From positions 1 to 39,461 of the forward strand of contig VHCW01000040.1 of NCBI GenBank assembly GCA_016871575.1: 39,461 bases of DNA, given 5' to 3'. Each line of letters begins with the position of its first letter. Position 1 is the first letter of the stretch. Below, piece after piece: positions 1,698 through 21,817 of this stretch. The position numbers and the translations under genes are program-made. This stretch comes from Verrucomicrobiota bacterium. GTDB lineage: Bacteria > Verrucomicrobiota > Verrucomicrobiia > Palsa-1439. The notes under the pieces are model-generated. The model saw only the letters and a list, made by a program, of their open reading frames with translations. It did not search any database and was not told where the DNA came from.

Positions 1698-2675
1698 ATG
1701 AACAACCCCACCGTCAAGGACAAGGCATCGAACGCCGCAGACAAGCGGAGAGTGACGCTTGCCCAGTTGCTTGTCTATGAGTTGCGTGTGCGTGATGCCA
1801 TGCACAAGGACCCGGTCACGGCGCAGCCGTCCGATTCCCTCCGCGCCATCCAGCACCTGATGAAAAAGCACCGCATTTCCGGTGTGCCCATTACCGAGAA
1901 CGGCAGGTTGCTTGGCGTTATCAGTATTGAGGACATCATTAACGCCCTCGACAAGGGGTACATCAATGACCCGTGTGACAAGTGGATGACGCGCGATCCT
2001 GTGACATTGCGCGACCACTACACGCTGGTGCGCGCCGTGGCCGAGTTTGACCGGCACGGTTTTGGGCGGTTCCCCGTGTTGGATGCGTGCGAGCAGTTGA
2101 CCGGCATCATCACCCGCGGCGACATCTCCAACGCGCTCGTCCATCACCTCGAAGCGCGCGCCGAGCAGGCTGTCGCCCACGAAGCCGTGCTCGTCGCCGA
2201 GCGGCAAGCCGATGAAAAAGCCCATCGTGTTGTCCTCCGCACCCCGATCAAGTCCGGCGATTTTGAGAGCGCCGGCAAGGTTTCCCAGCGGATGCGCGAA
2301 ACCTTGCGCCAGCGCGGCATTGATCCCGAAGCGCGTCGCCGGGCCGCCATTGTCGCCTACGAAGCGGAGACCAACATCATCATCCACTCCATCGGCGGCG
2401 AACTGCGCGTCGTCATCGAGCCGGAGCGTGTCGTCATTGATGCCATGGACCAAGGTCCCGGCATTGAACGCCTCGATCTCGCCATGCAGGAAGGCTGGTC
2501 CACCGCCGGGCCGCTGGCCCGGCAGCTTGGGTTTGGCGCCGGGATGGGGTTGCCGAACATGAAAAAAAGCGCCGACCACTTCGAGGTGCGCACCGAACTC
2601 GGCATCGGCACGCATCTGCACGCCGAGATTGTTTTGAAGAAAGCGGAACTCAACCCAGGAACAACAGCATCATGA
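1698..2675 (+). CDS. CBS-pair protein with C-terminal HATPase (RsbW-like kinase) domain
   Basis: This encodes 325 residues. Two CBS repeats occupy about residues 30-150 (VRDAMHKDPV and CDKWMTRDPV mark their starts), and a GHKL ATPase domain of the anti-sigma/serine-kinase type fills about residues 195-312. Visible nucleotide-binding motifs are the N box around EAETNIIIHS (222-231), DQGPGI (251-256) and GFGAGMGLPNM (278-288). CBS pairs usually sense adenine nucleotides, so the fusion suggests an energy-state-responsive regulator. Genes of this type occur beside [FeFe] bifurcating hydrogenase operons. It is the first gene of the block and overlaps the next by 4 nt. The chosen ATG lacks a clear Shine-Dalgarno sequence; no better in-frame start is evident. 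Confidence 0.85.
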   Translation: MNNPTVKDKASNAADKRRVTLAQLLVYELRVRDAMHKDPVTAQPSDSLRAIQHLMKKHRISGVPITENGRLLGVISIEDIINALDKGYINDPCDKWMTRDPVTLRDHYTLVRAVAEFDRHGFGRFPVLDACEQLTGIITRGDISNALVHHLEARAEQAVAHEAVLVAERQADEKAHRVVLRTPIKSGDFESAGKVSQRMRETLRQRGIDPEARRRAAIVAYEAETNIIIHSIGGELRVVIEPERVVIDAMDQGPGIERLDLAMQEGWSTAGPLARQLGFGAGMGLPNMKKSADHFEVRTELGIGTHLHAEIVLKKAELNPGTTAS

Positions 2676-3001
2676 CCATCAAAGACCTCATCGGCTGTCT
2701 GCAAGCCGAACTCCTGACCGGCAGCGCCGACACGCAGGTGTGCGGCTGTTACGCCGGCGATTTGCTCAGCGATGTGCTTGCCAGCGCGAAACCGGATGTG
2801 TTATGGATCACGATCCAAGTCCACCGAAACGTCGTCTCTGTGGCCAGCATGAAGGATATTTCCACCGTATTGATTACTCGCGGACGAAAACTTGACTCGC
2901 AAACCATTGCCGAGGCCGAGCAATCCGGCGTGACCGTCTTGAGCACGCCGCTCAGCAGCTACGAAGCCGCCGGCAAACTCTGGGAGACAGGACTACGATG
3001 A
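2672..3001 (+). CDS. DRTGG-domain protein
   Basis: This 109-residue protein is almost entirely a DRTGG domain: CGCYAGDLLSDVLASAKPDV, then WITIQVHRNVVSVASMKD and a C-terminal GVTVLSTPLSSYEAAGKL. The domain is of unknown biochemical role; it is found in phosphotransacetylase, in pyrophosphatases with CBS domains, and as stand-alone proteins in [FeFe]-hydrogenase operons. The start overlaps the upstream stop (ATGA), indicating translational coupling with the CBS-HATPase gene, and its stop overlaps the NuoE-like start. I infer a regulatory or ligand-sensing accessory of the hydrogenase. Confidence 0.8.
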   Translation: MTIKDLIGCLQAELLTGSADTQVCGCYAGDLLSDVLASAKPDVLWITIQVHRNVVSVASMKDISTVLITRGRKLDSQTIAEAEQSGVTVLSTPLSSYEAAGKLWETGLR

Positions 3002-3534
3002 GCGAACAAAAACAAATCAGCCATTCCGCGCGCCTTGCCACGCTGGACACGACGCATCCCAGCGGCGACCCGCGTTTTGCCGACCTTGACCGGACGATGG
3101 AGAGCTACAATTTCGACCCGACATCGCTCATCCAGATTCTTCACGCCGCCCAGCAGATGTTCGGCTACCTCAGCGCCGATGTGCTCCGCTACATTTCCAC
3201 GTCCTTGAAGCTGCCGATCTCCCACGTGTACGGCGTCGTCACCTTCTACCACCTGTTCACCATGAAACCGCGCGGCAAACACCAGATCATGGTCTGCCGC
3301 GGCACCGGCTGCCACGTGCGCGGCGCGACGCAAGTGCTCGAAGCGCTCCAAAAGGAACTCGGCATCCGCGAGGGCGAGACAACGAAGGACGGTCTTCTCA
3401 GCCTTGCGACGGCGCGCTGCATCGGCGCCTGCGCGCTCGCGCCCGCCATTTCCGTGGATGACGATGTGTACGGAAAGCTTTCGCCGGACAAGGTCAAGGA
3501 CCTTGTGAAGAACGACCTGAAAAAATATGTTTGA
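2998..3534 (+). CDS. hoxE: NuoE/HoxE-like [2Fe-2S] subunit of the NAD(P)-linked hydrogenase
   Basis: This 178-residue thioredoxin-like ferredoxin subunit has an N-terminal helical region (about 25-85, ILHAAQQMFGYLSADVLRYI) and the four cluster ligands of the 24-kDa complex I family: Cys100, Cys105 (CRGTGCHVRG), Cys141 and Cys145 (ARCIGACALAP). In Hox, Hnd and Hyd enzymes this subunit binds beside the NADH/FMN subunit. It is encoded just ahead of the NuoF-like gene, separated by two small accessory genes, and overlaps both neighbours by a few bases. Length and motifs match HndA/HydC/HoxE proteins; which name is best depends on phylogeny. Confidence 0.92.
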   Translation: MSEQKQISHSARLATLDTTHPSGDPRFADLDRTMESYNFDPTSLIQILHAAQQMFGYLSADVLRYISTSLKLPISHVYGVVTFYHLFTMKPRGKHQIMVCRGTGCHVRGATQVLEALQKELGIREGETTKDGLLSLATARCIGACALAPAISVDDDVYGKLSPDKVKDLVKNDLKKYV

Positions 3535-4009
3535 GGAGTTGTCACTGCACATTCTCGATATCGCGATGAATTCACTTGCCGCCAACGCCAGCAAGATCGA
3601 GATCAGCGTGCTGGAAAACCACCAGCGCGACTGGCTCATTCTGCGCGTGCGCGACAACGGCCGCGGCATGGACGCCGCTGCGCTCCACCGCGTGCTGCAC
3701 CACCGCGCCACCACCAAAACCCTTCGCAAGAAAAACATCGGCCTCGGCGTCGCCCTGTTGCGTCAAACCTCCGAGATGTGCGGCGGTCATTTCCACATCC
3801 GCAGCGCCCCCGGCCAAGGCACCAGCGTCACCGCCTCGATGCGCCTCAGCCACATTGACCGGCCGGCGCTCGGTGACTTGAACTCCAGCATCCTCGCCAT
3901 TTGCGCCGCCAACCCAAAGGTGGACGTGCGTTTGCATTACCGCACCGACAAGAACCAATACCATTTCAGCTCACACGAGCTGGCCCCGAAAGGAGAGTCC
4001 TGCCCATGA
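3527..4009 (+). CDS. Stand-alone HATPase (GHKL) accessory protein
   Basis: The 160-residue protein carries the GHKL ATP-binding fold without a histidine-phosphotransfer domain. The N box is DIAMNSLAANASKI (11-24), the G1 box is DNGRGM (43-48), the G2 region is IGLGVALL (71-78) and GQGT follows at 96-99. Similar small ATPases occur between hydrogenase subunit genes of the HydABC/HndABCD type, where their function is unsettled. It overlaps the NuoE-like gene by 8 nt and the next gene by 4 nt. The C-terminal tail beyond residue 110 has no motif I recognise. With the CBS-HATPase protein it makes two GHKL proteins in one operon and no histidine-kinase core in either. Confidence 0.85.
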   Translation: MFEELSLHILDIAMNSLAANASKIEISVLENHQRDWLILRVRDNGRGMDAAALHRVLHHRATTKTLRKKNIGLGVALLRQTSEMCGGHFHIRSAPGQGTSVTASMRLSHIDRPALGDLNSSILAICAANPKVDVRLHYRTDKNQYHFSSHELAPKGESCP

Positions 4010-4377
4010 ACCTCGAACAACTCAAACAGCTCAAAAACAAAGCCCAGAAACAGATCGCCCTGCGCGAGAGCGGCAAGAAATACCGCGTCGTCGTCAGCAT
4101 GGGCACCAGCGGCATCGCCGCCGGGGCGCGCGAGGTCATGAAGACGATGCTCGACGAAATGGAAAAGCGCGGCATCGAAAGCGTCGAAGTCGCCGTCACC
4201 GGCGAGATCGGCATGGTGGACGCCGAGCCGGTCGTGCGCATCGAGGAAGCCGGCGGCGAGAAGACCACCTACGCCAAGGTCAATCCCGAAGTCGCCCGCA
4301 AAATCGTGGTCGAGCATTTGGAGAAAGGCAAGAAGGTCGAGAGCGTCGCCGTCGGCAAGGTCAAAGAACAGGAGTAA
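4006..4377 (+). CDS. HndB-like protein lacking all cysteines
   Basis: The 123-residue protein matches the thioredoxin-like [2Fe-2S] HndB family over its whole length: SMGTSGIAAGAREV (31-44), VEVAVTGEIGMVDAEPVV (60-77), TYAKVNPEVARKIVVEHL near the C-terminus. The family normally has Cys where Ser35, Glu67 and Val71 occur (GTCG and TGC-x3-C). No cysteine is present anywhere, so it cannot bind a cysteine-ligated cluster. It likely keeps a structural or docking role beside the NuoF subunit. It has a strong ribosome site (AAAGGAGAG), overlaps the HATPase gene by 4 nt and precedes the NuoF fusion gene by 6 nt. The substitutions are clear in the nucleotide sequence and are not due to a frameshift. 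Confidence 0.85.
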   Translation: MNLEQLKQLKNKAQKQIALRESGKKYRVVVSMGTSGIAAGAREVMKTMLDEMEKRGIESVEVAVTGEIGMVDAEPVVRIEEAGGEKTTYAKVNPEVARKIVVEHLEKGKKVESVAVGKVKEQE

Positions 4378-4383
4378 TCCCCC

Positions 4384-7300
4384 ATGTCCACCGCCCGAAC
4401 ACATGTGCTGCTCTGCACCGGCACCGGCTGCTCCAGCGCCGGCAGCCTGATTACCCGCGATAAGTTGCGGGACGAACTCAAGAGGGCCGGACTCGGCGAC
4501 GAAATTCATGTCGTCGAGACCGGCTGCATGGGCCGCTGTGATCTCGGGCCGTGCGCGCTCGTCCATCCCGACGACACTTTCTACCAATACGTCAAGCCCG
4601 CCGACGCCCAGGCGCTCATCGAGGAGCATTTCGTCAAGGGACGCCCCTTCGAGAAACTGCTCCCGCGCGACCCCGTCACGCAAAGCGTCATCGCCACCAA
4701 GGAAGACTTCGCGTTCTTCCGTCTCCAAGCCAACGTCATCCGCCACAATTGCGGCGTCATCAACCCCGAGAACATCGAGGAATACATTGCCCGCGACGGT
4801 TACGCTGCGCTCGGCAAAGTGCTCACCGCGATGAAACCCGAACAAGTCATTGCCGAGGTCAAAGCCAGCGGCCTGCGCGGCCGCGGCGGCGCGGGATTCC
4901 CCACCGGCGTGAAATGGGAACTGATGTCCCGCGTGCCGTCCAAGACCAAGTACGTCGTCTGCAACGCCGACGAGGGCGACCCCGGCGCGTTCATGAACCG
5001 GTCCGTCATCGAAGGCGACCCGCACAGCGTGCTCGAAGGCATGATCATCGGCGGCTACGCGATGGGCGCCTCGCAGGGGTACATCTACATCCGCGCCGAG
5101 TATCCGCTCGCCATCAAACGCCTCCAGATCGCCATTGACCAAGCCTACAAGTACGGCCTGCTCGGCCAGAATCTTTTTGAAACCGGCTTCCAGTTCGACC
5201 TCGAACTGCGCATCGGCGCCGGCGCGTTCGTTTGCGGCGAGGAAACCGCGCTCATGCGTTCCATCGAGGGACGCCGGGGCCAGCCGATGCCCCGCCCGCC
5301 GTTCCCCGCGCAACGCGGCCTCTGGGGACAGCCCACCAACATCAACAACGTCGAGACGTGGTCCGGCATTCCTATCATCATCCGCAACGGCGCCGCGTGG
5401 TACTCGGCCATGGGCACCGAGCGCACCAAGGGCACCAAAGTGTTTGCGCTCACCGGCAAGATCAAGAACACCGGCCTCGCCGAGATCACTTTCGGCACGC
5501 CGCTCAGCGACATCGTTTACGAAATTGGCGGCGGCTGTCCCAACGGCAAACAATTCAAAGCCGTCCAGACCGGCGGCCCCTCCGGCGGCGTCATTCCGGC
5601 CAAACATCTCGACACCCCCGTCGAATACGAGAGCCTCCAGAAACTCGGCTCGATCATGGGTTCCGGCGGCATGGTCGTCATGGACGAGGATTCCTGTATG
5701 GTGGACGTGGCGCGGTTTTTCCTCGAATTCTGCTGCGACGAAAGCTGCGGCAAATGCCCGCCCTGCCGGGTCGGCACGAAGCAGATGCTCGACCTCCTCG
5801 AAAAAATCTGCCGCGGCGAAGCCTCCCTCGCCGACCTTGACCTGCTTGAAAGTCTCTGTACCACCGTCAAGGACGCCAGCCTCTGCGGCCTCGGCCAGAC
5901 TGCGCCGAACCCTGTCCTCACGACGCTCCGTTATTTCCGGCACGAGTACGAGCAACACATCCGCGAGCATCGTTGCGTCGCCGGCGCTTGCGGCGCGCTC
6001 GCCATCTCGCCCTGCGAGAACACCTGCCCGCTGAACATGAACATCCCGGCCTTCCTCCAGTTGCTCAAGGAAGACCGCCTTGATGACGCCTTCGAGCAGG
6101 TCGTCATGGACAACCCGCTCCCGTCTTCCACCGGCCGCGTCTGCCAGCACCCGTGCGAGATTCGTTGCCGTCGTTCGCAGGCCGACGCCCCGATCAACAT
6201 GCGCGAGACGCACCGCTACATTGCTGACGTGGCGTATGAAGGCACGGTGGCGAAAAGAGTCCTCAAACGCATTCTCAAACGGAAACAGAAACCGACCGGC
6301 AAGAAGATTGCCGTCATCGGCGCCGGTCCCGCCGGGTTGAGCGCGGCGTTTTATCTTGCGTTGCTCGGCCACAAGGTCACCGTCTTCGAGAAAGCCGCCG
6401 ATGCCGGCGGCATGTTGCGGTACGCGCTGCCCGAATACCGGCTCCCGAAGAAGATCGTGGACAAGGAAATCGCGCTGATCAAGGCCGCCGGAGTCAAATT
6501 CCAGTTCAACACCAAACTCCGCAAGCTCGACAAGTTCGCGAAGGAACACGACGCCGTGTTCGTCGCCGTCGGCACGTGGGAGGAACAGGCGCTCGGTGTC
6601 CCCGGCGACGAGGCGAAGGGACTCTACTCCTCGCTCAGCTTCCTCAACGAAGCGTCGCTCGGCAAGAAGACCAAACTCGGCCAGAAAGTGCTCGTCATCG
6701 GCGGCGGCAACTCCGCCATTGACGCCGCGCGCACCGCGATGCGGCAGGGCGCGGTCGCGACGATTGTCTATCGCCGCAGCCGCGCTGACATGCCGGCGAT
6801 CCAGGAGGAAGTGGACCAGGCCCTCGAAGAAGGCGCGCAGTTGATCACGATGGTCGCCCCGGTGCGGTTGATCACCGATGCCAAGGGCAAGCTCACCGGC
6901 CTCGAAGTCGCCAAGACCGTCCCCGGCAAATACGACGCCAAGGGCCGGCGCGCGCCCGTGGTGACGAAGGACACGTTCATCATCCCGTGCGACGCCATCA
7001 TCAAGGCCATCGGCGAGAAGGCCGACAGCGTGTTGACGAAGGGACTCGGCCTCGAAACGACCTCGTGGGGCACGATCAAGGTTGACCCGTGGACGCTGCA
7101 GACCAGCAACCCGAAAGTCTATGCCGGCGGCGATTACGTCAGCGGCGCGGCCAACGTCGCCACGGCGATGGGCTACGGCAAGAAAGCCGCCAAACAGATG
7201 GATCGCGCGCTAACCGGTTTCGACCGGTTCGAAGAGTTGTGGCCGAAGTTCGAATACGACAACACCGTGCCGCCGCCTTCGCAAGGCGGCGCGCGCAATC

Positions 7301-7428
7301 CCGCGCGGGCGATCCTGCCCGCCGAACGCGTCGGCAACACGGAAGTCTCGCCGACGTTCACCGAGTGGCAGGCCAAAGCCGAGTGCCTGCGTTGCCTGCG
7401 TTGCGATATCAAGACGGAGGCCAAGTAA
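4384..7428 (+). CDS. NuoF-GltD fusion: NADH/FMN diaphorase subunit joined to an NADPH-type flavoprotein domain
   Basis: This 1014-residue fusion has four parts. (1) Residues 1-95 are a thioredoxin-like [2Fe-2S] domain (Cys11, Cys16, Cys48, Cys52). (2) About 115-520 is NuoF/HoxF: GLRGRGGAGFPTG for FMN, CNADEGDPGAF for NADH, an SLBB region, then ESCGKCPPC and SLCGLGQ for the N3-type [4Fe-4S] cluster. (3) About 540-625 is the Fer4_20 helical domain of GltD (ENTCPLNMNIP, GRVCQHPCEIRC). (4) About 640-970 is an FAD/NAD(P) domain with GAGPAGLSAAFY, VIGGGNSAIDAA, VYRRSRADMPA and GGDYVSGAANVATAMGYGKKA. The YRRSR motif is associated with NADPH specificity. The GltD part replaces the C-terminal ferredoxin domain of HydB-type subunits. 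It probably exchanges electrons between NADH, NADPH and the hydrogenase. Confidence 0.93.
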   Translation: MSTARTHVLLCTGTGCSSAGSLITRDKLRDELKRAGLGDEIHVVETGCMGRCDLGPCALVHPDDTFYQYVKPADAQALIEEHFVKGRPFEKLLPRDPVTQSVIATKEDFAFFRLQANVIRHNCGVINPENIEEYIARDGYAALGKVLTAMKPEQVIAEVKASGLRGRGGAGFPTGVKWELMSRVPSKTKYVVCNADEGDPGAFMNRSVIEGDPHSVLEGMIIGGYAMGASQGYIYIRAEYPLAIKRLQIAIDQAYKYGLLGQNLFETGFQFDLELRIGAGAFVCGEETALMRSIEGRRGQPMPRPPFPAQRGLWGQPTNINNVETWSGIPIIIRNGAAWYSAMGTERTKGTKVFALTGKIKNTGLAEITFGTPLSDIVYEIGGGCPNGKQFKAVQTGGPSGGVIPAKHLDTPVEYESLQKLGSIMGSGGMVVMDEDSCMVDVARFFLEFCCDESCGKCPPCRVGTKQMLDLLEKICRGEASLADLDLLESLCTTVKDASLCGLGQTAPNPVLTTLRYFRHEYEQHIREHRCVAGACGALAISPCENTCPLNMNIPAFLQLLKEDRLDDAFEQVVMDNPLPSSTGRVCQHPCEIRCRRSQADAPINMRETHRYIADVAYEGTVAKRVLKRILKRKQKPTGKKIAVIGAGPAGLSAAFYLALLGHKVTVFEKAADAGGMLRYALPEYRLPKKIVDKEIALIKAAGVKFQFNTKLRKLDKFAKEHDAVFVAVGTWEEQALGVPGDEAKGLYSSLSFLNEASLGKKTKLGQKVLVIGGGNSAIDAARTAMRQGAVATIVYRRSRADMPAIQEEVDQALEEGAQLITMVAPVRLITDAKGKLTGLEVAKTVPGKYDAKGRRAPVVTKDTFIIPCDAIIKAIGEKADSVLTKGLGLETTSWGTIKVDPWTLQTSNPKVYAGGDYVSGAANVATAMGYGKKAAKQMDRALTGFDRFEELWPKFEYDNTVPPPSQGGARNPARAILPAERVGNTEVSPTFTEWQAKAECLRCLRCDIKTEAK

Positions 7429-7430
7429 CC

Positions 7431-9236
7431 ATGATTGCCCCCAAGAAAATCTCCATCACCATCAACGGGCAGGTTTGCGAAGGCGAACAGGGCCAGACCA
7501 TCCTCGAAATCGCTCGCGCCAACAACATCTATATCCCGACGCTCTGCTACATGAAGGGGCTGACGCCGTGGGGCGGCTGCCGGCTGTGCATCGTCGAGGT
7601 CGAGGGCAACCCGAAAGTGGTTCCCTCGTGCGCCACGCCGGCCGTGGACGGCACGAAGATCACGACCCACAACGACCGGCTCGTCGCGTTGCGCAAGGCG
7701 ACGCTCGAATTGCTGTTCAGCGAACGCAACCACATCTGCCCGATCTGCCCCTACAACAAGGGCGATTGCGGCCTCCAGCATCAGGGACTGGCGCACGGCA
7801 TCACCGGCATCCGTTACCCGTACTTGTATCCTGCGTTGCCGGTGGACGTGACTGGGCGGTACTTCGGCATTGACCACAACCGTTGCATCCTCTGCACCCG
7901 TTGTATCCGCACCTGTGACGAGATCGAAGGCGTTCACACGCTCGATGTCTCCAGTCGCGGCATCAAGAACCAGATCGTCGTGGACATGAACACGACGTTT
8001 GGCGCGTCCGACACCTGCACCCAGTGCGGCGCCTGCGTCGTCAGTTGCCCCACGGGCGCGCTCTTCGACAAGGCTGCCGCGTTCCGCGGCCAGTGGACAA
8101 GTTCCGTGCAAATCCTCACCACCTGCACCGAGTGCCCCGTCGGTTGCGGCCTGAAAGTGCACACGAAAGAAAACCGGATCGTGAATGTCTGGGGCGACCC
8201 CGACAGCCCGGTCAACACGGGCCACCTCTGCGTCAAGGGCCGTTACCAGACTTGGGCCGAACCGCGCGACCGGATCACCACGCCGCTCATCAAAGGCCAG
8301 CCGGCGACCTGGGACGAAGCCCTCGCCGCCATCAAGAAAGCCGCGAAGGTCAAGAAGGCGGAGAAAGCGTTGCTCGTCGCGCCGCGCGTCACCAACGAAA
8401 CCGCCGCCGCCATCGCCGGCGTCGCCGGTAAATTCGGCCAGACTGCCATGTTCGTCGGCGCCAACGAAGCCGCGCTCTGCGCCGAGCCGTCGTTCACCGG
8501 GGACGCGCTGCGCAAGTTGCAGGACGCCGACGCCATCATTGTTCTCGGCGCGCAGCCAACCCGCGACAACGGCGTCGTGGCCTCCCGCATTCGCGTGGCC
8601 GTTCGCAAGCGTGGCGCGAAGCTCTTGATCTTCCACGCCCGCAAGAGCGAGCTGGACCGGCACGCCGACGTTGCCGCCAACGTCGTCAGCTTGGAAAGCA
8701 AACTCTGGAATAAGGTCAAAGCCGCGCTCGCCGGCGCGCAGCGGCCTGCCATCGTTTACGGCCCCAACGCGATGACGCCCATCGGCGTCACCGTGATGGA
8801 ACGGCTCATCGCCATCTTCGAGGCCAACACCGGCGGCAGCGAACCGTTGCTGATCGGGTTGCCCGTCAGCGCCAACGCGCTCGCCATGTCCCGCGCCGGC
8901 ATCCCGGCGGTCGAGGAAGTCGGGCCGTGGCTCGACGCGAAACCGTTGAAGTTCCTGCACATCGTCGTCGGCGACGCGCTCGACGGCGGCGCGGGCTTGC
9001 TGGAGGAAAAATACGTGCCCGCGTTGCTGGAGCGGATTGACTGCCTCGTCGTGCAGGCGAGCTACAAGTCGGCGTTGACCGACAAGGCGAGCGTCGTGTT
9101 GCCCGCGACCATCTGGTGCGAGAAGACCGGCACCGTCACCAACCTCGAAGGCCGCGAGTTGCCGCTGCGGCCCGTCGTGACCGTCGCCGGCGAAGCCCGC
9201 GATGACAAAGCGATTCTGGAGAGCGTTTACGCATGA
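7431..9236 (+). CDS. NuoG/HoxU-like iron-sulfur subunit with truncated molybdopterin-type domain
   Basis: The start is ATG 7431, 2 nt after the fusion gene, giving 601 residues that begin MIAPKKISITING. Visible ligands are: [2Fe-2S] Cys39, 50, 53, 67; His101-Cys103-Cys106-Cys113 (HoxU-style His-Cys3); Cys152, 155, 158, 162 and Cys196, 199, 202, 206 for two [4Fe-4S] clusters; and an N7-like set Cys232, 235, 239, 267 (CTECPVGCG...GHLCVKG). Residues 275-601 resemble a shortened molybdopterin-oxidoreductase fold without an evident active-site ligand. HoxU proper is only about 240 residues, so this is closer to NuoG or to SfrA, the partner of SfrB. It likely wires the flavin subunit to HoxY. Its stop overlaps the hoxY start. 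Confidence 0.88.
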   Translation: MIAPKKISITINGQVCEGEQGQTILEIARANNIYIPTLCYMKGLTPWGGCRLCIVEVEGNPKVVPSCATPAVDGTKITTHNDRLVALRKATLELLFSERNHICPICPYNKGDCGLQHQGLAHGITGIRYPYLYPALPVDVTGRYFGIDHNRCILCTRCIRTCDEIEGVHTLDVSSRGIKNQIVVDMNTTFGASDTCTQCGACVVSCPTGALFDKAAAFRGQWTSSVQILTTCTECPVGCGLKVHTKENRIVNVWGDPDSPVNTGHLCVKGRYQTWAEPRDRITTPLIKGQPATWDEALAAIKKAAKVKKAEKALLVAPRVTNETAAAIAGVAGKFGQTAMFVGANEAALCAEPSFTGDALRKLQDADAIIVLGAQPTRDNGVVASRIRVAVRKRGAKLLIFHARKSELDRHADVAANVVSLESKLWNKVKAALAGAQRPAIVYGPNAMTPIGVTVMERLIAIFEANTGGSEPLLIGLPVSANALAMSRAGIPAVEEVGPWLDAKPLKFLHIVVGDALDGGAGLLEEKYVPALLERIDCLVVQASYKSALTDKASVVLPATIWCEKTGTVTNLEGRELPLRPVVTVAGEARDDKAILESVYA

Positions 9237-9784
9237 GCACAAACGGAAAAGTAAAAGTGGCAACGATGTGGTTGAGCGGCTGTTCGGGCTGCCACATGTC
9301 GTTGCTCGACATTGACGAGCGGATCCTCGAACTGGTGAAGCACGTGGACATCCTGTTCAGCCCGATCGTGGACATCAAGGTCAAGGACATGCCATACGTG
9401 GACGTCGGCATCGTCGAGGGCTGCGTCAACAACACCGATCAGGAACACGAATTGAAGATGCTGCGCGAACGTTGCAAGGTGCTCATCGCGCTCGGCGATT
9501 GTGCCGTGACCGGTAATGTGCCGTCGTTGCGGAATCAGTTTGCGTTGAAGGATTGCCTTAGCCGCGCCTACGAACAGACCGAGAGCACCAAGATTGCCTG
9601 CATTCCCAATGATCCCGTGGTGCCCAAACTGTTGCCCAAGGCCCATCCGTTGCAGGAGATCGTGAAAGTGGATTTGCATATTCCCGGCTGTCCGCCTGAT
9701 GCCGACTGCATCTGGTTTGCGCTGACCGAACTGCTCGCCGGGCGCATCCCGCAATTGAACGAGAAGAACATGAGGTACGACTAG
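9233..9784 (+). CDS. hoxY: [NiFe] hydrogenase small subunit HoxY
   Basis: This 183-residue short small subunit carries only the proximal [4Fe-4S] cluster, as in the cytoplasmic NAD-linked group 3d type. Ligands are Cys17 and Cys20 (WLSGCSGCHMSLLDIDER, close to the HoxY signature), Cys90 (GDCAVTGN) and Cys153 (PGCPPDAD). No twin-arginine signal is present, so it is a cytoplasmic protein. It passes electrons from the NiFe site of HoxH to the NuoG-like subunit. It overlaps the upstream gene by 4 nt and precedes hoxH by 1 nt. Confidence 0.94.
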   Translation: MSTNGKVKVATMWLSGCSGCHMSLLDIDERILELVKHVDILFSPIVDIKVKDMPYVDVGIVEGCVNNTDQEHELKMLRERCKVLIALGDCAVTGNVPSLRNQFALKDCLSRAYEQTESTKIACIPNDPVVPKLLPKAHPLQEIVKVDLHIPGCPPDADCIWFALTELLAGRIPQLNEKNMRYD

Positions 9785-9785
9785 A

Positions 9786-11222
9786 ATGACCAGCAAGACC
9801 ATCCTCATCAACCCGGTGACCCGCATTGAGGGGCACGCGAAGATTACGATTCACGTGGACGCGAAGGGTAACGTGGACGACGCCCGGTTCCACGTCGTCG
9901 AGTTCCGCGGCTTTGAGAAATTCTGCGAAGGCCGGCACTACACCGAGATGCCAAACATAACGCCGCGCACCTGCGGCATCTGCCCCGTCAGCCACCTGCT
10001 CGCCAGCGCCAAGGCGTGCGACGCCATCGTTGGACGCGAAATCCCGCGCACGGCGAAGATGCTGCGCGAACTGATGCACATGGGCCAGATCATCCAGTCC
10101 CACGCCCTCAGCTTCTTCCATCTCAGCGCGCCGGACATGTTGCTCGGCTTCGACAGCGACCCGCTGAAACGCAACGTCATCGGCCTCGTCGCCGCCGCGC
10201 CCGACATCGCGGTCAAGGGCGTCCTCCTGCGCAAGTACGGCCAGGAAATGATCAAGACCGTCGCCGGCCGCAAGGTCCACGCCGATTTCCCCGTCCCCGG
10301 CGGCGTCAACAAGGCGCTCACCGCCGAGCAGCGCGACGCGATGCTCAAGGGAATGCCGGCGGCGTTTGAGACGGCGAAGTTCGCGCTCGATCTGCTCAAG
10401 GGCTACCACGCGAAGAACCTCGCCGAGGTCGAGGACTTCGGGAATTTCGATTCCAACTACATGGGCCTTGTCCAGCCCGACGGCGCGCTGGAGTTGTACG
10501 ACGGCAATCTCCGGTTCTGCAACGCCAAGGGCGAGATCATCCACGACCAGATTCCCCCGTCGCAGTATCTCGACTACGTGGCCGAGGCGGTGGAGCCGTG
10601 GAGCTACATGAAGTTCCCGTTCATCGCCAAGCTCGGCTACCCGCACGGCATGTACCGCGTCGGCCCGCTGGCGCGCCTGAACGTGTGCAGCCACATCTCA
10701 ACGCCGCTGGCCAATGCCGAGTTGAAAGTCTGGCGCGAGAAACGCCGGGTGCAGACCAGCTCGTTCTACTTCCACTGGGCGCGGCTCATCGAACTGCTCT
10801 ACGGCTTGGAACGCGCGCAGCAATTGCTCGAAGACAAGGAAATCACCAGCACCGACATCCTCGTGCCGAATCAACCGCAGAACCCGGTCGGCGTCGGCAT
10901 CGTCGAGGCGCCGCGCGGCACGCTCATTCATAATTATTGGGTGAACAAGGACGGCCGGGTCGAGAAGGTGAACCTCATCGTCTCCACCGGCCACAACAAC
11001 CTCGCCATGAACAAGGGCGTGTACGCGCTGGCGAAGAAATACGTGAAGTCGAAGAAGCTCCAGGAAGGCATGCTCAACCGCGTCGAGGCGGTCATCCGCT
11101 GTTACGACCCGTGCTTGAGCTGCGCGACGCACGCCGTCGGCCAGATGCCGATGATGGTGGAGTTGCAGGACGCGGATGGCAAGATATTGGAAACGTTACG
11201 GAGGGATCCGGGAGGGGAGTAA
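9786..11222 (+). CDS. hoxH: [NiFe] hydrogenase large subunit HoxH
   Basis: The 478-residue catalytic subunit has the L1 motif RTCGICPVSH with Cys63 and Cys66, and the L2 motif DPCLSCATH with Cys443, Cys446 and His449. These four cysteines ligate the NiFe(CN)2CO site. A 29-residue extension follows His449 (AVGQMPMM... to the end) and is expected to be removed by a maturation endopeptidase, whose gene follows. The sequence resembles group 3 bidirectional enzymes, catalysing H2 oxidation/production with cytoplasmic NAD(P) and/or ferredoxin coupling. It lies 1 nt after hoxY. Confidence 0.95.
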   Translation: MTSKTILINPVTRIEGHAKITIHVDAKGNVDDARFHVVEFRGFEKFCEGRHYTEMPNITPRTCGICPVSHLLASAKACDAIVGREIPRTAKMLRELMHMGQIIQSHALSFFHLSAPDMLLGFDSDPLKRNVIGLVAAAPDIAVKGVLLRKYGQEMIKTVAGRKVHADFPVPGGVNKALTAEQRDAMLKGMPAAFETAKFALDLLKGYHAKNLAEVEDFGNFDSNYMGLVQPDGALELYDGNLRFCNAKGEIIHDQIPPSQYLDYVAEAVEPWSYMKFPFIAKLGYPHGMYRVGPLARLNVCSHISTPLANAELKVWREKRRVQTSSFYFHWARLIELLYGLERAQQLLEDKEITSTDILVPNQPQNPVGVGIVEAPRGTLIHNYWVNKDGRVEKVNLIVSTGHNNLAMNKGVYALAKKYVKSKKLQEGMLNRVEAVIRCYDPCLSCATHAVGQMPMMVELQDADGKILETLRRDPGGE

Positions 11223-12083: not shown

Positions 12084-13280
12084 ATGCCAGTCATCGCAGA
12101 AGACATGAACGAGATTACGCTGGAGAACCTGTGGAACACCCCGGAAGGCCACCGTGTGCTCAGTTGCATGCAGTGCGGCATGTGCGCGGGGACGTGTCCC
12201 TACGGCGAGGTGATGGAATATCCGCCGCGCCGGATCATCGGGATGCTCAAGGCGGGCGAACTGGACACCGTGCTGCGCAGCCAGAGCCTGTTGACCTGCG
12301 TGACTTGTTACGCCTGCATGAATAAATGCCCGCGCGGCATCCGGCTCACCGAAGTTCTGTTGCCGCTCGTCAAGGAACAGACGTTCATCCAGCTGACCGA
12401 CATGCCGGCGGAACTCCAGAAGGCGCTCGAAAACACCGACCGCTACGGCAACCCGCTCGGCGAATCGCCCCGCAAACGCGCCGACTGGGTCAAGACCTCG
12501 AAAGTCCCCGTCCGCATCCTGCCGACTGACCGCAAGCCGACCGACGTGCTCTGGTTCGTCGAGTGCTACACCGCCTATCATCCGCGCGGCCAGGACAACT
12601 GCCGGGCCACCGCGAAGCTGTTCCACGCGCTCGGCGTTGATTTTGCCATCCTCGGCCACGAGGAAAAATGCGCCGGCGAATGCGCCCGCCTCACCGGCGA
12701 GACCGGCTTGTTCGACAAACTGACCGATTACACGATGAAGCTGCTCGGCAAGTACAAATTCAACCGCCTCGTCACCTCCGGCGCGCACGCCTATGACACC
12801 TTCGTGCACGAGTATCGGCCCCGCGGATTCAATCACGAGTTGGACCACACCGTTTCGTTCTTCGCCAGCCGGCTCGACCAACTCAAGCCAAAGCTCAAGA
12901 AGAAACTCAATTACACCGTCACCTACCACGACGCCTGCGCGCTCGGCCGGCACAACAACATGTACGACGAGCCGCGCAAACTCCTCGCCGCCATCCCTGG
13001 CGTGAAACTCGTCGAGATGGAGCACAACCGCGAGAACGGAATCTGTTGCGGCGGCGGCGGCGGCGGGATGTGGCTCGACACCTATTACAAGGCGAAGGGC
13101 TACGAGCGTCTCAGCGAACGCCGCATCAAGGAAGCCATCGCCACCGGCGCCAACGTGCTCGCCGTCTCTTGCCCCTACGAAGTCTCCCGTTTTGAAGACG
13201 CCCTCAAGACCGTGGGCGGCAACAGCAACATGATTGTCCGCGACGTGGTCGAACTGCTCGCCGAATCCTTGGAGGAATAA
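12084..13280 (+). CDS. Soluble HdrD-like iron-sulfur protein (HdrC-type clusters plus CCG domain)
   Basis: This 398-residue protein has two ferredoxin-like cluster motifs near the N-terminus (CMQCGMCAGTCP and CVTCYACMNKCPRGI) followed by two CCG-type domains. The first CCG domain is degenerate: ECYTAYHP and EKCAGEC remain, but the usual CPGCY-like pair is SGAHAYDTF. The second keeps YHDACALGR, ICCGGGGGG and a final SCPYE cysteine, so one non-cubane cluster may form. No membrane segments are seen. It is followed 3 nt later by etfB and resembles the C-terminal half of the membrane protein at 15020-16897. I infer a soluble electron carrier linking ETF or hydrogenase to another partner. A ribosome site GAGAGGAG precedes it. 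Confidence 0.85.
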   Translation: MPVIAEDMNEITLENLWNTPEGHRVLSCMQCGMCAGTCPYGEVMEYPPRRIIGMLKAGELDTVLRSQSLLTCVTCYACMNKCPRGIRLTEVLLPLVKEQTFIQLTDMPAELQKALENTDRYGNPLGESPRKRADWVKTSKVPVRILPTDRKPTDVLWFVECYTAYHPRGQDNCRATAKLFHALGVDFAILGHEEKCAGECARLTGETGLFDKLTDYTMKLLGKYKFNRLVTSGAHAYDTFVHEYRPRGFNHELDHTVSFFASRLDQLKPKLKKKLNYTVTYHDACALGRHNNMYDEPRKLLAAIPGVKLVEMEHNRENGICCGGGGGGMWLDTYYKAKGYERLSERRIKEAIATGANVLAVSCPYEVSRFEDALKTVGGNSNMIVRDVVELLAESLEE

Positions 13281-13283
13281 CGC

Positions 13284-14048
13284 ATGAACATACTCGTCCT
13301 GCTCAAAATGGTTCCCGATGTCGTCGAGGAACTGGAGGTGGCCGGCGACGGCAAGTCGCTCGACACCTCGTTCCTGCGCACCATCATCAACGAACGCGAC
13401 GACCACGCGCTCGAACAGGCGATCCTCCTGAAGGAACGCCACGGCGGCAAGGTCACCGTTGTCGCGCTCGATGCGCCCGACATTGACGACACGCTGTTCG
13501 CCACGATGGCGAAAGGCGCCGACCGCGCCGTGAAAATCACCGACGCGCCCGAAGGCATGACCACGCAGATGGCCGCCAAGCTCTGCGGGCAGGTTGTCGC
13601 CGGGCTGTTGCCGGCCGATCTCGTCCTCACCGGCGTGCAGGCGCTCGACGACCTCGACGGACTCAGCGCCGCGTTGGTCGCGCAGCAACTCAACTTCCCC
13701 TACATCGGCGTCGTGACCGCCGTCACTGCCGGCGGGCCGACCGCGACGGTCCTCAAGGAATTTGCCGGCGGCGTGCGCGGCGAGTTTGCCGTGACGTTGC
13801 CCGCCGTGCTCGGCGTGCAGGCGGCGGAGAAACCGCCGCGCTATGTGCCCGTTGCCAAGGTGCGCGCCGTGATGAAGACGAACAAGATCGAGACCGTTTC
13901 CGCGCCCGGCGATGCCGGCGCGGCGCAGATTGAAGTCCGGCAACTGGCCAAGCCCGTGGTGAGCAGCCATGCCGAGATGTTGGAAGGCTCACCCGAAGAA
14001 GCCGCCGGCAAGCTCGTCGAGCTGCTGGCCCAACGCGGTCTGCTCTAA
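13284..14048 (+). CDS. etfB: Electron transfer flavoprotein beta subunit
   Basis: The 254-residue protein opens MNILVLLKMVPDVVEELEV and contains the NERDDHALEQAILLKER and LVLTGVQALDDLDG segments typical of EtfB. It pairs with EtfA to bind FAD and AMP or a second FAD. Whether this ETF is of the bifurcating type cannot be decided by eye. It lies between the HdrD-like gene and etfA, and the membrane ETF:quinone oxidoreductase-like gene follows, so electrons probably move between ETF, the HdrD-like proteins and the quinone pool. Confidence 0.93.
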   Translation: MNILVLLKMVPDVVEELEVAGDGKSLDTSFLRTIINERDDHALEQAILLKERHGGKVTVVALDAPDIDDTLFATMAKGADRAVKITDAPEGMTTQMAAKLCGQVVAGLLPADLVLTGVQALDDLDGLSAALVAQQLNFPYIGVVTAVTAGGPTATVLKEFAGGVRGEFAVTLPAVLGVQAAEKPPRYVPVAKVRAVMKTNKIETVSAPGDAGAAQIEVRQLAKPVVSSHAEMLEGSPEEAAGKLVELLAQRGLL

Positions 14049-14062
14049 AGGAGGACGACACC

Positions 14063-15013
14063 ATGGCATCCAACATCTGGGTTCTCGCTGAAACGTGGCG
14101 CGGTCAGGTCACCGAGACCACGCTCGAACTGTTGACACTCGGCCGCGAAGTCGCCGGCCAATCCGGCAGCCAACTCGAAGCCGTCCTGCTTGGCGACAAA
14201 TCGCTCGCCGCCTCGCTCGGCGCCGCCGACAACGTGCTCTGCGCCGCCAATGTCGAGCCGACACCCGAAGCCGTCGCCGCGGCGCTCGCGCAACTCGTCA
14301 AGGAACGCCAGCCGCAGGCTGTGCTCGTTCCGTGGACGAACCTTTCAATGGACGCCGGGGCGCTTGCCGCGGCGCAGTTGAACGTGCCGTTCGTCAACGG
14401 CTGCAAAGACCTCAAGTCCGACGCCGGGACACTCGTGGCGCAGTGCGTGGTTTACGGCGGCAAACTCGAAGCCGCCGTCTCAGCCACAACTGCCTCGACA
14501 TTGTTCGGCGTCTTGCCGGGGTCGCGTTCCGCCGCAAGTCCGGGAAACGCCCCGACGGTCACGGATGTCGCGGTGACGTTGCCGGAAGCGAAAGTGAAAT
14601 TCACCAAGTATCTCGAACCCGAAGCCGGCGGCGTGGACATCACGCAGCAGGACGTGCTCATCGCCGTCGGTCGCGGCATCCAGACGCAGGACAACATGGA
14701 ATTGGCGAATGATCTTGCCGCGGCGCTCGGCGGCGCGGTGTGCGGGTCGCGGCCGGTGATTGACCAGGGCTGGCTGCCGTTGTCCTGTCAGGTCGGCAAG
14801 TCCGGGATGCAGGTGAAACCGAAGCTCTACATCATGCTCGGCATCAGCGGCGCGCCGGAACACATCGAGGGCATCAAGGGCGCGCAGGTTGTTGTTGCTG
14901 TCAACACCGACGCGGCGGCGCCGGTGTTCAACGCGTCGCACTACGGCATCAATGCCGACCTGTTCGAGGTTGTGCCGGCGTTGACGGAAGCCGTGAAGGC
15001 GAAAAAAGGATAA
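14063..15013 (+). CDS. etfA: Electron transfer flavoprotein alpha subunit
   Basis: This 316-residue protein has the N-terminal EtfA domain (IWVLAETWRGQVTETTLELL) and the C-terminal FAD-binding domain: VGRGIQTQDNMELANDLA, GSRPVIDQGWLP, QVGKSGMQVKPKLYIMLGIS, VVAVNTDAAAPVF and DLFEVVPAL. It has an AAGGAGG-type ribosome site 8 nt before ATG 14063. It forms the ETF heterodimer with the product of the preceding gene. No ferredoxin domain is fused at its N-terminus, unlike some EtfA paralogues. Confidence 0.95.
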   Translation: MASNIWVLAETWRGQVTETTLELLTLGREVAGQSGSQLEAVLLGDKSLAASLGAADNVLCAANVEPTPEAVAAALAQLVKERQPQAVLVPWTNLSMDAGALAAAQLNVPFVNGCKDLKSDAGTLVAQCVVYGGKLEAAVSATTASTLFGVLPGSRSAASPGNAPTVTDVAVTLPEAKVKFTKYLEPEAGGVDITQQDVLIAVGRGIQTQDNMELANDLAAALGGAVCGSRPVIDQGWLPLSCQVGKSGMQVKPKLYIMLGISGAPEHIEGIKGAQVVVAVNTDAAAPVFNASHYGINADLFEVVPALTEAVKAKKG

Positions 15014-15019
15014 CGAACC

Positions 15020-16897
15020 GTGACCCACGATCCAGTCAGAATCTCTTTGTTGGGCGTGCCCGGCTGGGCGGTGCTCTGGGCGCTGTCGGTGGCGGCGTTC
15101 GGCGTGTTCGGCTGGCGCGCGTGGCAACTGATCGGGTTGCTGCGGCAGGGGCGGCCGGAAAACCGGTTCGACCAACTCGGCCAGCGCGTGCTGCGGTTTT
15201 GCAAGCACGTGCTGTTGCAGCCGCGGCTGCTCAATGAACGCAGCATCGGGCTGCCGCACTTGCTGATCTTCTGGGGGTTCGTCGTTTATGTGATCTGCTT
15301 CAACTGGAGTTTGGTGCGCGGGCTGGTGCCGGTGTTGCCGATACCGTACCCGGAGGAAGTTTTTGTCGCGGCGTTGTTCCTCAAGGCGTTTGCGGTGCTC
15401 GTGTTGATTTCGCTCGGTATCGCGGTGGCGCGCCGGATCTTTTTCCCGCCGCCGCACCTGCACTTGAGTTGGGACGCCAACCTAATTTTGTCGCTGATCG
15501 CGGTGCTGATGTTGACGACGCTGCTCAGCGCGTTTTGGCCGAGGGCAATGTGGTGGCTGCACATGGTCACCGTGTTGTTCTTCCTGGTCTATCTGCCGTA
15601 CTCGAAACACCTGCACCTGCTGGCGTCGCCATTCAACGTCTTCTTCGGCAACCTGCGCCCGGCGGGCGACTTGGGCATCGCGGGCGGCAGCGAGGAGATT
15701 ACGGCGGGGTCGGCGAAGTGGAACGAGTTCACGTGGAAACAACTGCTCAGCGGTTTCTCATGCGCCGAGTGCGGGCGCTGCGACCGGGCCTGCCCGGCGA
15801 CGACGGCGGGGTTCCCGTTGCAACCGCAAGAGATCGTCCAGAAACTCAAGAAGCACACCATCCATGCGGGGCTGGAAACGAACGGCGGCAAGTTGATCGG
15901 CGACGTGATCACCGAGGACGAAATCTGGGCCTGCACGACGTGCATGTCGTGCATGGAGCGGTGCGCGGTGCTCAACGAGCAGATTCCGATCATCGTTCAA
16001 CTGCGCCGGCACCTGGTGGCCGAGGGGCAGATGGCGAAGACGTTGCAGGACGCGCTCCAGAACTTCACCCGCTACGGCAACTCGTTTGGCAAGTCGGACC
16101 GGATGCGGGCAAAATGGACGCAGCCGCTCGGCTGGAAGGTCAAGGACGCCCGCAAGGAGCCGGTCGAGTATTTGTGGTTTGTCGGCGACTACGCCAGCTA
16201 CGATCCGCGTCTGGAGGAAATCACGCGCCAGACCGCGCGGCTGTTCCAGCAGGCCGGCGTGGACTTCGGGATTTTGTACGAGGGCGAACGCAACGCCGGC
16301 AACGACGTGCGCCGGATCGGCGAGGAAGGTTTGTTCGAGATGCTGCGCGACAAGAACAAGCAGAGCTTCGAGAAGGCGCAGTTCAAGGCAATCGTCACGA
16401 CTGACCCGCACGCCTACAACGCGCTGAAGAACGAGTACGGCCTCAGCGTGCCGGTGCTGCACTACAGCGAACTGCTCGACCAACTCGTCGCGCAGGGCAA
16501 ACTGACGTTTGCGAAGAAGAACGGCGTCCGTGCGACGTACCACGATCCGTGTTACCTCGGCCGGTACAACGACATTTACGAGCCGGCTCGTCGTGTGTTG
16601 CAGGCGGCCGGCGTGGAGTTGGTGGAAATGCCGCGCAGCCGTTGCCAGAGTTACTGCTGCGGCGCCGGCGGAGGCCGGATTTGGATGGAAGACACCCCCG
16701 GCGTGAAAGAACGTTCCGCGGAGAGCCGAGTGCGCGAGGCGGCGGCATTGGGCGTGGACACGCTCGTGGTCGCGTGCCCGAAAGACTTGGTGATGTTCCA
16801 GGACGCGGTGAAGACCGCGGGGCTGGAAGGCAAACTCACGATCAAGGATTTGACGGAACTGGTGCAGGAGGCGCTCAAACCCGCTGCGCAAGCATAA
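15020..16897 (+). CDS. Membrane ETF:quinone oxidoreductase-like protein (cytochrome b domain plus HdrD domain, EMO/EtfD type)
   Basis: Residues 1-210 of 625 form about five membrane helices (near 10-34, 75-100, 110-135, 148-170, 175-195), with histidines at the helix ends (LPHLLIFWG, WWLHMVTV, SKHLHLL) that could bind b hemes as in NarI/HdrE. Residues 240-330 carry two [4Fe-4S] motifs (CAECGRCDRACP and CTTCMSCMERC). Residues 370-620 are CCG-type: the first copy has lost all its ligands (ERNAGND, TTDPHAYNAL), while the second keeps YHDPCYLGR, YCCGAGGGR and VACPKD. This architecture beside etfBA matches ETF:(methyl)menaquinone oxidoreductases of Geobacter-type bacteria and mycobacterial EtfD. 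I infer electron flow between ETF and quinones. Confidence 0.85.
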   Translation: MTHDPVRISLLGVPGWAVLWALSVAAFGVFGWRAWQLIGLLRQGRPENRFDQLGQRVLRFCKHVLLQPRLLNERSIGLPHLLIFWGFVVYVICFNWSLVRGLVPVLPIPYPEEVFVAALFLKAFAVLVLISLGIAVARRIFFPPPHLHLSWDANLILSLIAVLMLTTLLSAFWPRAMWWLHMVTVLFFLVYLPYSKHLHLLASPFNVFFGNLRPAGDLGIAGGSEEITAGSAKWNEFTWKQLLSGFSCAECGRCDRACPATTAGFPLQPQEIVQKLKKHTIHAGLETNGGKLIGDVITEDEIWACTTCMSCMERCAVLNEQIPIIVQLRRHLVAEGQMAKTLQDALQNFTRYGNSFGKSDRMRAKWTQPLGWKVKDARKEPVEYLWFVGDYASYDPRLEEITRQTARLFQQAGVDFGILYEGERNAGNDVRRIGEEGLFEMLRDKNKQSFEKAQFKAIVTTDPHAYNALKNEYGLSVPVLHYSELLDQLVAQGKLTFAKKNGVRATYHDPCYLGRYNDIYEPARRVLQAAGVELVEMPRSRCQSYCCGAGGGRIWMEDTPGVKERSAESRVREAAALGVDTLVVACPKDLVMFQDAVKTAGLEGKLTIKDLTELVQEALKPAAQA

Positions 16898-16898
16898 C

Positions 16899-18812: not shown

Positions 18813-19915
18813 TGGGCAACGAACGCTACAAAATCCTGTTGATTGACGACGAGGAAGTCGTGCTCGATTCCTGCGCCCGCATGTTGCGCGGCGGCAACCA
18901 CGAGGTCGTGAGCATCATGGACGGCGCCCAGGGCGTGGAACTGGCCCACCAGTTCCATCCCGACCTCGTCATCGTGGACCTGAAGATGCCCGGCATCTCC
19001 GGGCTGGAAGTCCTGGAGCGCATCCACGCCTTCGATCCGACCATCGTCAGCATCATGCTCACCGGCTTCGCCACTGTCGGCAGCGCCGTGGACGCGATGA
19101 AACGGGGCGCCTGCGATTTCCTGCCGAAGCCGATCGCGCCGGATGAGTTTCGGATGGTGGTCTCTCGCGCGCTGGAGCGACGGCGGCTGATTCTGGAGAC
19201 GCAGGCATTACGGCGCGAGAAGGAGATGTTGCGGGAACAGTTCGCCGCCATCGTGTCGCACGAGCTGAAAAGCCCGCTCGGCGCGATTCAGCAGAACCTG
19301 TTCGTGCTGGCCGAGGAACTTTCCGACAAGCTCGACGAATCGCAACGCCAGCGGCTGGAGCGCATGAAGGTCCGCGTGACCGACCTGATGAAGATGATCC
19401 AGACCTGGCTGCGGCTGATCTCCGCCGACATCGGCAAGATCCGCGACAACTTCCATCCGGTCGCCATCAAGGAAGTCATCGCCAAGGCCATCGAGAGCGT
19501 GCAGAACGAGGCGACCCGCAAAAACATCGAAGTGCTCGCCGAGGGCGCCGACACGCCCCGCCGCGTCAACGGCGACGAGGGCACGCTCGTGCAGGCGCTC
19601 GTCAACCTTCTGAACAACGCGATCAAATACTCCCGCAGCGCCAGCGAAATCCAGGTGCGCGTGACGGAAGACGGCGACAAGGTCGCCCTCGCCGTGGCCG
19701 ACAGCGGCGTCGGCATCGCGGCGGACGAACTGCCGCACGTGTTTGAGGACTTCTATCGCGCGCCGTCGTCGGCCAAGGGCGAGCAGGGCGCCGGCCTCGG
19801 CCTGCCGCTGAGCCGGCGGATCGTGGAGGCGCATGACGGAACGATTTCCGTGAGCAGTGAACCCGGCAAAGGCAGCACGTTCACCATCCGTCTGCCCGCG
19901 CTGAAAACCAGTTAA
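18812..19915 (+). CDS. Receiver-histidine kinase hybrid (REC-HK)
   Basis: This 367-residue soluble protein has an N-terminal receiver domain (ILLIDDEE, phospho-acceptor in VIVDLKMPG, switch Thr in LTGFA, Lys in LPKPI) and a kinase core (H-box SHELKSPLGAIQQN, N-box LVNLLNNAIKY, DSGVGI, GAGLGLPLSRRIV). There is no membrane segment. The order receiver then kinase suggests it is phosphorylated by the upstream sensor kinase and relays to another receiver, likely the next gene. Start and upstream stop overlap in TGATG. Confidence 0.93.
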   Translation: MGNERYKILLIDDEEVVLDSCARMLRGGNHEVVSIMDGAQGVELAHQFHPDLVIVDLKMPGISGLEVLERIHAFDPTIVSIMLTGFATVGSAVDAMKRGACDFLPKPIAPDEFRMVVSRALERRRLILETQALRREKEMLREQFAAIVSHELKSPLGAIQQNLFVLAEELSDKLDESQRQRLERMKVRVTDLMKMIQTWLRLISADIGKIRDNFHPVAIKEVIAKAIESVQNEATRKNIEVLAEGADTPRRVNGDEGTLVQALVNLLNNAIKYSRSASEIQVRVTEDGDKVALAVADSGVGIAADELPHVFEDFYRAPSSAKGEQGAGLGLPLSRRIVEAHDGTISVSSEPGKGSTFTIRLPALKTS

Positions 19916-19926
19916 GGAGAAACGAC

Positions 19927-20349
19927 ATGAGCAAAGCCAAGCAACTGTTGATCATTGACGATGATGTGGACTATGTGGATGGGATCAAAGCCATCCTGAC
20001 GCGCGCCGGCTACGAGGTCGCGGCGGCCTACAACCCGAAGTCGGGCATGGAATTGTTGAAATCGAAACCGTGGGACCTGTTCTTGCTCGATGTGATGATG
20101 GGGCGCGGCGCCGAGGGCATCATGATGGCCCGCCAGATCGGCAAGGACCCGAAACTGCGCGAGACGCCGTTGCTGATCATCACCGGCATCCGCGAACAGA
20201 TCGCGTTCCTGTTCCCCGGCGAGCCGGTCCACCCGCATTTCGTCGCCAACGACGAATTGATGGAAAAACCGGTGGACCCGAAGCTGTTGCTGGAACGGGT
20301 CGCCGCGCTGCTGAAGGCGTCGGAAGCCAAGAAAGCGAAAGCGAAATAG
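19927..20349 (+). CDS. Single-domain response regulator
   Basis: The 140-residue protein is a receiver domain only: LLIIDDDVDYVDG with the acidic pocket, the phospho-Asp in LFLLDVMM, the Thr in LIITGI and the Lys in LMEKPVDPKLL. There is no DNA-binding domain, so it probably acts by protein contact. A 20-residue insertion-like stretch between the Thr and Lys motifs (FLFPGEPVHPHFVAND) is longer than in CheY-type receivers. It is preceded by AAGGAGA and followed 2 nt later by hdrC, suggesting a link with the Hdr-Mvh complex. Confidence 0.9.
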   Translation: MSKAKQLLIIDDDVDYVDGIKAILTRAGYEVAAAYNPKSGMELLKSKPWDLFLLDVMMGRGAEGIMMARQIGKDPKLRETPLLIITGIREQIAFLFPGEPVHPHFVANDELMEKPVDPKLLLERVAALLKASEAKKAKAK

Positions 20350-20351
20350 TC

Positions 20352-21802: not shown

Positions 21803-21817
21803 CGAGAAGGAGAACCT

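Follow-up and report, generated by a model that had tools for sequence, protein, structure and literature searches.

A cysteine-free HndB protein encoded in a predicted [NiFe] electron-bifurcating hydrogenase operon of a Verrucomicrobiota bacterium

What can an HndB protein contribute to a hydrogenase once it has lost every cysteine? The question is raised by a 39,461-nucleotide (nt) contig of a Verrucomicrobiota bacterium (VHCW01000040.1), whose entire length is here referred to as the window. The first-pass annotation described an HndB-like gene at positions 4006 to 4377, with a clean reading frame and no cysteine codon, and proposed that the fold had been kept as a structural or regulatory subunit of the complex. 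We examined the gene, its operon and its relatives, and we suggest that the protein may be a cluster-free docking or regulatory subunit of the hydrogenase.

A cysteine-free HndB within a HydABCSL-type operon

The open reading frame 4006..4377 on the plus strand starts with ATG, is intact and encodes 123 residues, none of which is cysteine, as the first-pass annotation had stated; both segments quoted there were found in the protein, GTSGIAAGAREV as residues 33 to 44 and VTGEIGMVDAEPVV as residues 64 to 77. Since it shares 4 nt at its start with the HATPase gene upstream, and only 6 nt separate its end from hydB, hndB is a real member of the operon. The protein shares 33 to 48% identity over nearly the full length with standalone HndB proteins of Synergistota, Bacillota, Nitrospirota, Thermodesulfobacteriota and Bipolaricaulota, and this full-length relationship places it, as far as the sequence can tell, in the HndB/HydD (BfuD) family. 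It also has the family's usual size of about 120 to 130 amino acids, an N-terminal helix followed by a thioredoxin-like ferredoxin fold in its structural model, and a gene located within a HydABC-type operon beside the HATPase/HydC and HydB genes. A Pfam search at an E value threshold of 0.01 matched it to no family, including PF01257, the thioredoxin-like [2Fe-2S] ferredoxin model, which was matched by 31 of 54 HndB homologues.

The surrounding genes, all on the plus strand and mostly overlapping, begin with a regulatory gene for a fusion of a CBS pair with a SpoIIAB-like HATPase, recognized by profile matches (1698..2675), which overlaps by 4 nt the next regulatory gene of the cassette, encoding a DRTGG-domain protein (2672..3001; PF07085, 3.8e-06; 4-nt overlaps). 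They are followed by hydC (2998..3534), whose NuoE/HoxE-like product is a thioredoxin-like [2Fe-2S] protein (PF01257, 4.6e-51), and by the gene for a GHKL ATPase lacking a HisKA domain (3527..4009; HATPase_c, 9.4e-16), which corresponds by gene content and order to HydE of Acetobacterium woodii and HisK of Acetomicrobium mobile. Downstream of hndB, the 1,014-residue HydB (NuoF; 4384..7428) combines an N-terminal four-Cys domain with a C-terminal GltD/NfnB-like NAD(P)H oxidoreductase, according to Pfam and NCBIfam matches. The operon continues with a HydA-like (NuoG) Fe-S subunit (7431..9236), identified by domain search and reading frame, in which we looked for an H-cluster domain and detected none, and with the small and large [NiFe]-hydrogenase subunits HydS (9233..9784; PF01058, 2.5e-28) and HydL (9786..11222). 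Since HydL carries both NiFe ligand motifs (RTCGICPVSH and DPCLSCATH) and HydA shows no H-cluster domain, the operon, with its HydB/HydC core, HydS and HydL, is predicted to encode an enzyme of the NiFe HydABCSL type, belonging to the electron-bifurcating class (NiFe-Bfu).

The CBS-HATPase protein is a possible adenine-nucleotide sensor, and proteins related to it and to the DRTGG protein are encoded alongside HndB operons across many phyla. Beside the hydrogenase operon (12084-23794) lie genes for CCG/4Fe-4S proteins, both ETF subunits, two histidine kinases, an HdrB-like CCG protein and an HdrA-like flavoprotein. A pyruvate:ferredoxin oxidoreductase of 1,202 residues, encoded at 32002-35610, belongs to the same redox island and probably supplies reduced ferredoxin.

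An incomplete cluster site and its complete loss

The canonical ligands of thioredoxin-like [2Fe-2S] proteins occupy columns 31, 36, 67 and 71 (CX4C and CX3C). This quartet is complete in HydC and in the N-terminal domain of HydB, the two proteins covered by our cluster check in the window, whereas HndB has none of the four. Where canonical or HndB-type ligands would be expected, it carries S31, S35, G36, E67 and V71. The replacement of cysteines by Ser35, Glu67 and Val71, as originally proposed, was borne out: the three residues fall exactly on columns that are cysteine in most HndB homologues, and the protein does not qualify for the three-Cys HndB subtype. A stretch of 123 residues without cysteine is by itself not improbable by chance; what goes beyond chance is the joint loss at three columns otherwise fixed as cysteine, together with the conservation of S35 and E67 among the proteins that lost them.

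To judge how widespread this loss is, we compared standalone HndB proteins from 80 loci of named genomes, to which we added genomes from the phylum of the window and from those of three relatives. All three cysteines were present at columns 35, 67 and 71 in 142 of 199 proteins, 56 had none and 1 was mixed, a few genes having been fetched, and hence counted, repeatedly; after reduction at 80% identity, the figures were 87, 24 and 1 (n = 112). The possibility that HndB homologues of hydrogenase operons are mostly or generally cysteine-free was therefore rejected. However, the background assumption that HndB proteins are [2Fe-2S] proteins proved too strong. Column 36 was cysteine in 0 and column 31 in 1 of the 199 sequences, so that cysteine-containing HndB proteins have two of the usual four ligands together with a shifted Cys35, and column 31 is mostly Gly or His. 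Cys35 is an HndB-type position rather than a canonical ligand, the canonical four-Cys site is missing from almost all HndB proteins, and the window protein represents the end-point of an already incomplete site. Having no cysteine at all, the predicted protein could not hold a Cys-ligated cluster. His31 occurs in 50 three-Cys HndB proteins of Nitrospirota, Thermodesulfobacteriota and others (L092:6001-6369, L103:4135-4500 and similar), and in the three-Cys class a site of three cysteines and one histidine, or a cluster whose fourth ligand is not a cysteine, is conceivable.

The published record is mostly in line with a cofactor-free subunit. In HndB of Solidesulfovibrio fructosivorans a redox centre is probably absent (PMC10084766), and HndB/HydD has been described as cofactor-free (PMC10084766, PMC3315566, PMC6288185), whereas one review lists the conserved cysteines of HydD as putative ligands (PMC6085437). 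In the N-terminal domain of StnB, two of the four ligand cysteines are replaced by glycine and no [2Fe-2S] cluster is listed in the cryo-EM study (PMC7483475, PMC10482914). Earlier publications had thus already regarded HndB/HydD as cofactor-free or as lying outside the holoenzyme; the window protein adds a cysteine-free variant of a known subunit.

All 13 Verrucomicrobiota HndB proteins of our first comparison, including that of the window, lack cysteine at the ligand columns, and 2 of them carry one elsewhere. Cysteine-free proteins were also found in Omnitrophota (L047), in Bipolaricaulota (L071 and relatives) and in a Syntrophorhabdaceae bacterium (L054) and its kin, whereas the sampled Bacillota and Synergistota proteins retain three cysteines. 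In a tree calculated without columns 31, 35, 67 and 71 and without one stray long-branch cysteine-free sequence (L158), the cysteine-free members formed two supported groups (100/97 and 92/90), implying two changes: one of Verrucomicrobiota and Omnitrophota, the other of Bipolaricaulota and some Syntrophorhabdaceae-type bacteria; a single-clade topology was not rejected (AU p 0.37). Within the cysteine-free group, S35 and E67 are conserved at 94% and 89%, respectively, and H104 and Y89 are invariant there and in the cysteine class alike. This distribution indicates that the loss is old and has been maintained. One Verrucomicrobiota genome contains a second, divergent cysteine-free HndB (L046:6001-10186; also L030 and G010); the HydB that follows it has a three-Cys N-terminal domain, and no HATPase gene is nearby.

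The loss could not be tied to the HydB-GltD fusion, as cysteine-free Verrucomicrobiota loci have either fused (the window, L032, L034, L035 and L040) or unfused HydB (L031, L033, L037 and L039). A link to [NiFe] enzymes is suggestive. HydS and HydL accompany most cysteine-free Verrucomicrobiota loci and 17 of 20 loci of a mostly Bipolaricaulota cysteine-free set, compared with 0 of 20 cysteine-type loci from the window's phylum. Nevertheless, it is not a rule and involves few independent lineages: the NiFe operons of Synergistota keep the cysteines, and the Syntrophorhabdaceae-type cysteine-free loci lack HydS.

The hndB gene is under purifying selection. For most close HndB pairs, omega ranged from 0.02 to 0.09, with one pair at 0.21, these estimates being rough on account of the codon bias (GC3 0.84); the value of 0.44 between the window and L040 accompanies an unusually low dS. 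When referenced to the window, HndB showed dN values much like those of HydB and HydC. The absence of purifying selection, which would have spoken against a functional subunit, was thus not observed.

Fold, neighbours and the N terminus of HydB

The retention of the fold proposed in the first-pass annotation is supported by an AlphaFold2 model of the window HndB, built from 54 sequences (pLDDT 83). The closest solved folds are the N-terminal domains of HydB-type subunits, namely StnB of Sporomusa ovata and the B subunit of NfnABC, with VIA Z scores of 17.5 (9bp5, chain 9bp5_B), 17.1 (9n5u) and 15.8 (8oh5); these domains have the HndB-like three-Cys pattern and are fused to the flavin subunit, whereas the window protein is standalone and cysteine-free. 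The thioredoxin-like [2Fe-2S] ferredoxin of Aquifex aeolicus (1f37/1m2a) has the same fold (Z 16.4, about 26% identity) but binds a cluster through ligands that the window HndB lacks. The model thus indicates that the thioredoxin-like ferredoxin fold would be kept in the absence of cysteines. With the ligand columns omitted, the cluster loops are the most conserved part of the cysteine-free group (0.52 versus 1.47 bits; permutation p 5e-5), and because they are best conserved even without cysteines, we read the former cluster loops as a possible binding surface.

In the first set, a HATPase gene was present at 44 of the 53 long HndB loci. In two further sets it was found in 34 of 40 HndB operons (missing from the vicinity in 3 of 20 in each set), compared with 0 of 20 HydBC operons that lacked HndB, the latter all from one phylum and the counts ignoring kinship. 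It was the nearest recognized gene upstream of HndB at 76 of 123 loci, usually overlapping it or lying within about 50 nt.

The N terminus of HydB varied together with the presence of HndB, some of the loci counted being short. Of 110 HndB-containing operons, 109 had a four-Cys domain there, whereas among the 20 lacking HndB, 12 had an HndB-like three-Cys domain, 4 a four-Cys domain and 4 none. Conversely, among 20 further HydB proteins picked for an HndB-like three-Cys N terminus, none was accompanied by a separate HndB or by an operon-type HATPase; a CBS-HATPase-like gene and a large kinase with a weak match were each seen once. Outside HndB operons, the same domain occurs as a fusion to the N terminus of HydB, in operons that lack the HATPase. 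HydB occurs in two forms at these loci (L231-L250, L291-L310), either with a four-Cys N terminus beside a separate HndB or with an HndB-like three-Cys domain fused to it and no HndB, and the pattern suggests a domain exchange at the HydB N terminus. In a tree with the ligand columns, HndB and the three-Cys HydB N termini formed one group apart from the four-Cys domains (98/96); without these columns, the best tree split them, a single group not being rejected (AU p 0.28).

Possible roles of a cluster-free HndB

Related subunits or genes are known from several characterized enzymes. The Hnd hydrogenase of S. fructosivorans and that of A. woodii have both been described as tetramers that include HndB/HydD (PMC10084766, PMC6288185). 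The HndB of the former, compared here by description, carries the same family name as the window protein and is likewise part of a HydABC-type complex, but this complex is an electron-bifurcating FeFe enzyme, whereas that of the window is predicted to be of the NiFe type. In A. woodii the gene set comprises hydC, hydE (with an ATP-binding domain like that of histidine kinases), hydD, hydB and hydA (PMC3315566, PMC6288185); HydD, which the gene set and its size of about 15 kDa identify as probable HndB, has no predicted cofactor (PMC3315566, PMC6288185), and HydE is outside the active enzyme and may act in assembly or signalling (PMC3315566). The gene content is as in the window, but the enzyme is again of the FeFe type and the sampled Bacillota proteins keep three cysteines. 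The NiFe-HydABCSL of A. mobile shares its enzyme type with the window, although the sampled Synergistota HndB proteins have three cysteines. On the basis of gene numbers (1675 to 1678 and 1681 are in the enzyme; PMC8880783) and of the gene order at the Synergistota loci L050 and L083, its HydD is probably HndB; both hydD and hisK are outside the holoenzyme (PMC9304861), and maturation and/or regulation has been assumed for the extra genes of the operon (Feng et al., PMC8880783).

Of the original proposal, the HndB homology, the fold, the lack of a Cys-ligated cluster and the purifying selection held up; the role itself we infer. We suggest, with about an even chance of being right, that the window HndB is a cluster-free docking or regulatory subunit of the HydD/BfuD kind between the HATPase and the HydBC core. 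As part of a [NiFe] electron-bifurcating HydABCSL-type hydrogenase, the protein would transport no electrons, although its thioredoxin-like ferredoxin fold would be retained, as would the conserved surface formed by the earlier cluster loops. It most likely docks onto the HydBC core, at the site taken in other lineages by the fused HndB domain, and would pair with the HATPase encoded directly upstream, so that a nucleotide or energy-state signal involving the HATPase, CBS and DRTGG genes could be passed via HndB to the hydrogenase. Evidence against a stably docked HndB comes from the enzyme purified from A. mobile, which lacks HydD (HndB by gene order), whereas the enzyme purified from A. woodii contains it.

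The tetramers of S. fructosivorans and A. woodii (PMC10084766, PMC6288185) and the existence of HydB-fused HndB-like domains would suit a purely structural protein, a permanent cofactor-free fourth subunit that stabilizes the flexible domains of HydC and the HydB N terminus without any regulation or special tie to the HATPase. The absence of HydD from the A. mobile holoenzyme (PMC9304861) argues against this possibility, which we hold to be rather doubtful. It also leaves the strong gene linkage of HndB and HATPase unexplained. GHKL ATPases include chaperones, and HndB and HATPase might form an ATP-driven pair that inserts cofactors into HydBC or assembles it and leaves afterwards. The functions assumed for the extra A. 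mobile genes (PMC8880783) and for A. woodii HydE (PMC3315566) would agree with such a pair, but both genes are missing from many HydBC operons, the assembly of which must in general proceed independently of them, and sensing better matches the CBS and DRTGG partners; we regard this explanation as unlikely. That HndB is still a redox or metal protein, through non-Cys ligands such as S35, E67 and H104 or through a site shared with a partner subunit, seems very improbable. Although the cysteine-free group conserves S35 and E67, and H104 and Y89 are invariant, the latter two are so in the cysteine class too and hence are no replacements; moreover, the window protein has no cysteine whatsoever, and the joint loss of three cysteines is as expected for an abandoned site. 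The lost ligand residues are the sole point in favour of a decaying, non-functional gene, an explanation of negligible probability that was rejected in view of the 13 intact Verrucomicrobiota frames, the low omega and the motifs invariant across phyla.

A broader extension of the docking and regulatory reading, which we offer only tentatively, is that HndB may be an adaptor through which a GHKL ATPase and CBS/DRTGG sensors gate bifurcating hydrogenases according to the energy state. Most lineages would have a three-Cys version, possibly redox-responsive, while the cysteine-free version of Verrucomicrobiota/Omnitrophota and of Bipolaricaulota-type lineages would be uncoupled from redox sensing.

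Electron-bifurcating hydrogenases govern the balance of H2, NADH and ferredoxin in anaerobes, and the roles suggested so far for HndB/HydD and the linked HATPase are assembly, signalling, maturation or regulation. The cysteine-free HndB divorces the fold from cluster chemistry; if it is functional, electron transfer cannot be the job of HndB. The tight linkage to a GHKL ATPase gene, together with the fused form seen in HydB, provides a testable idea of where HndB may dock and which signal it may convey.
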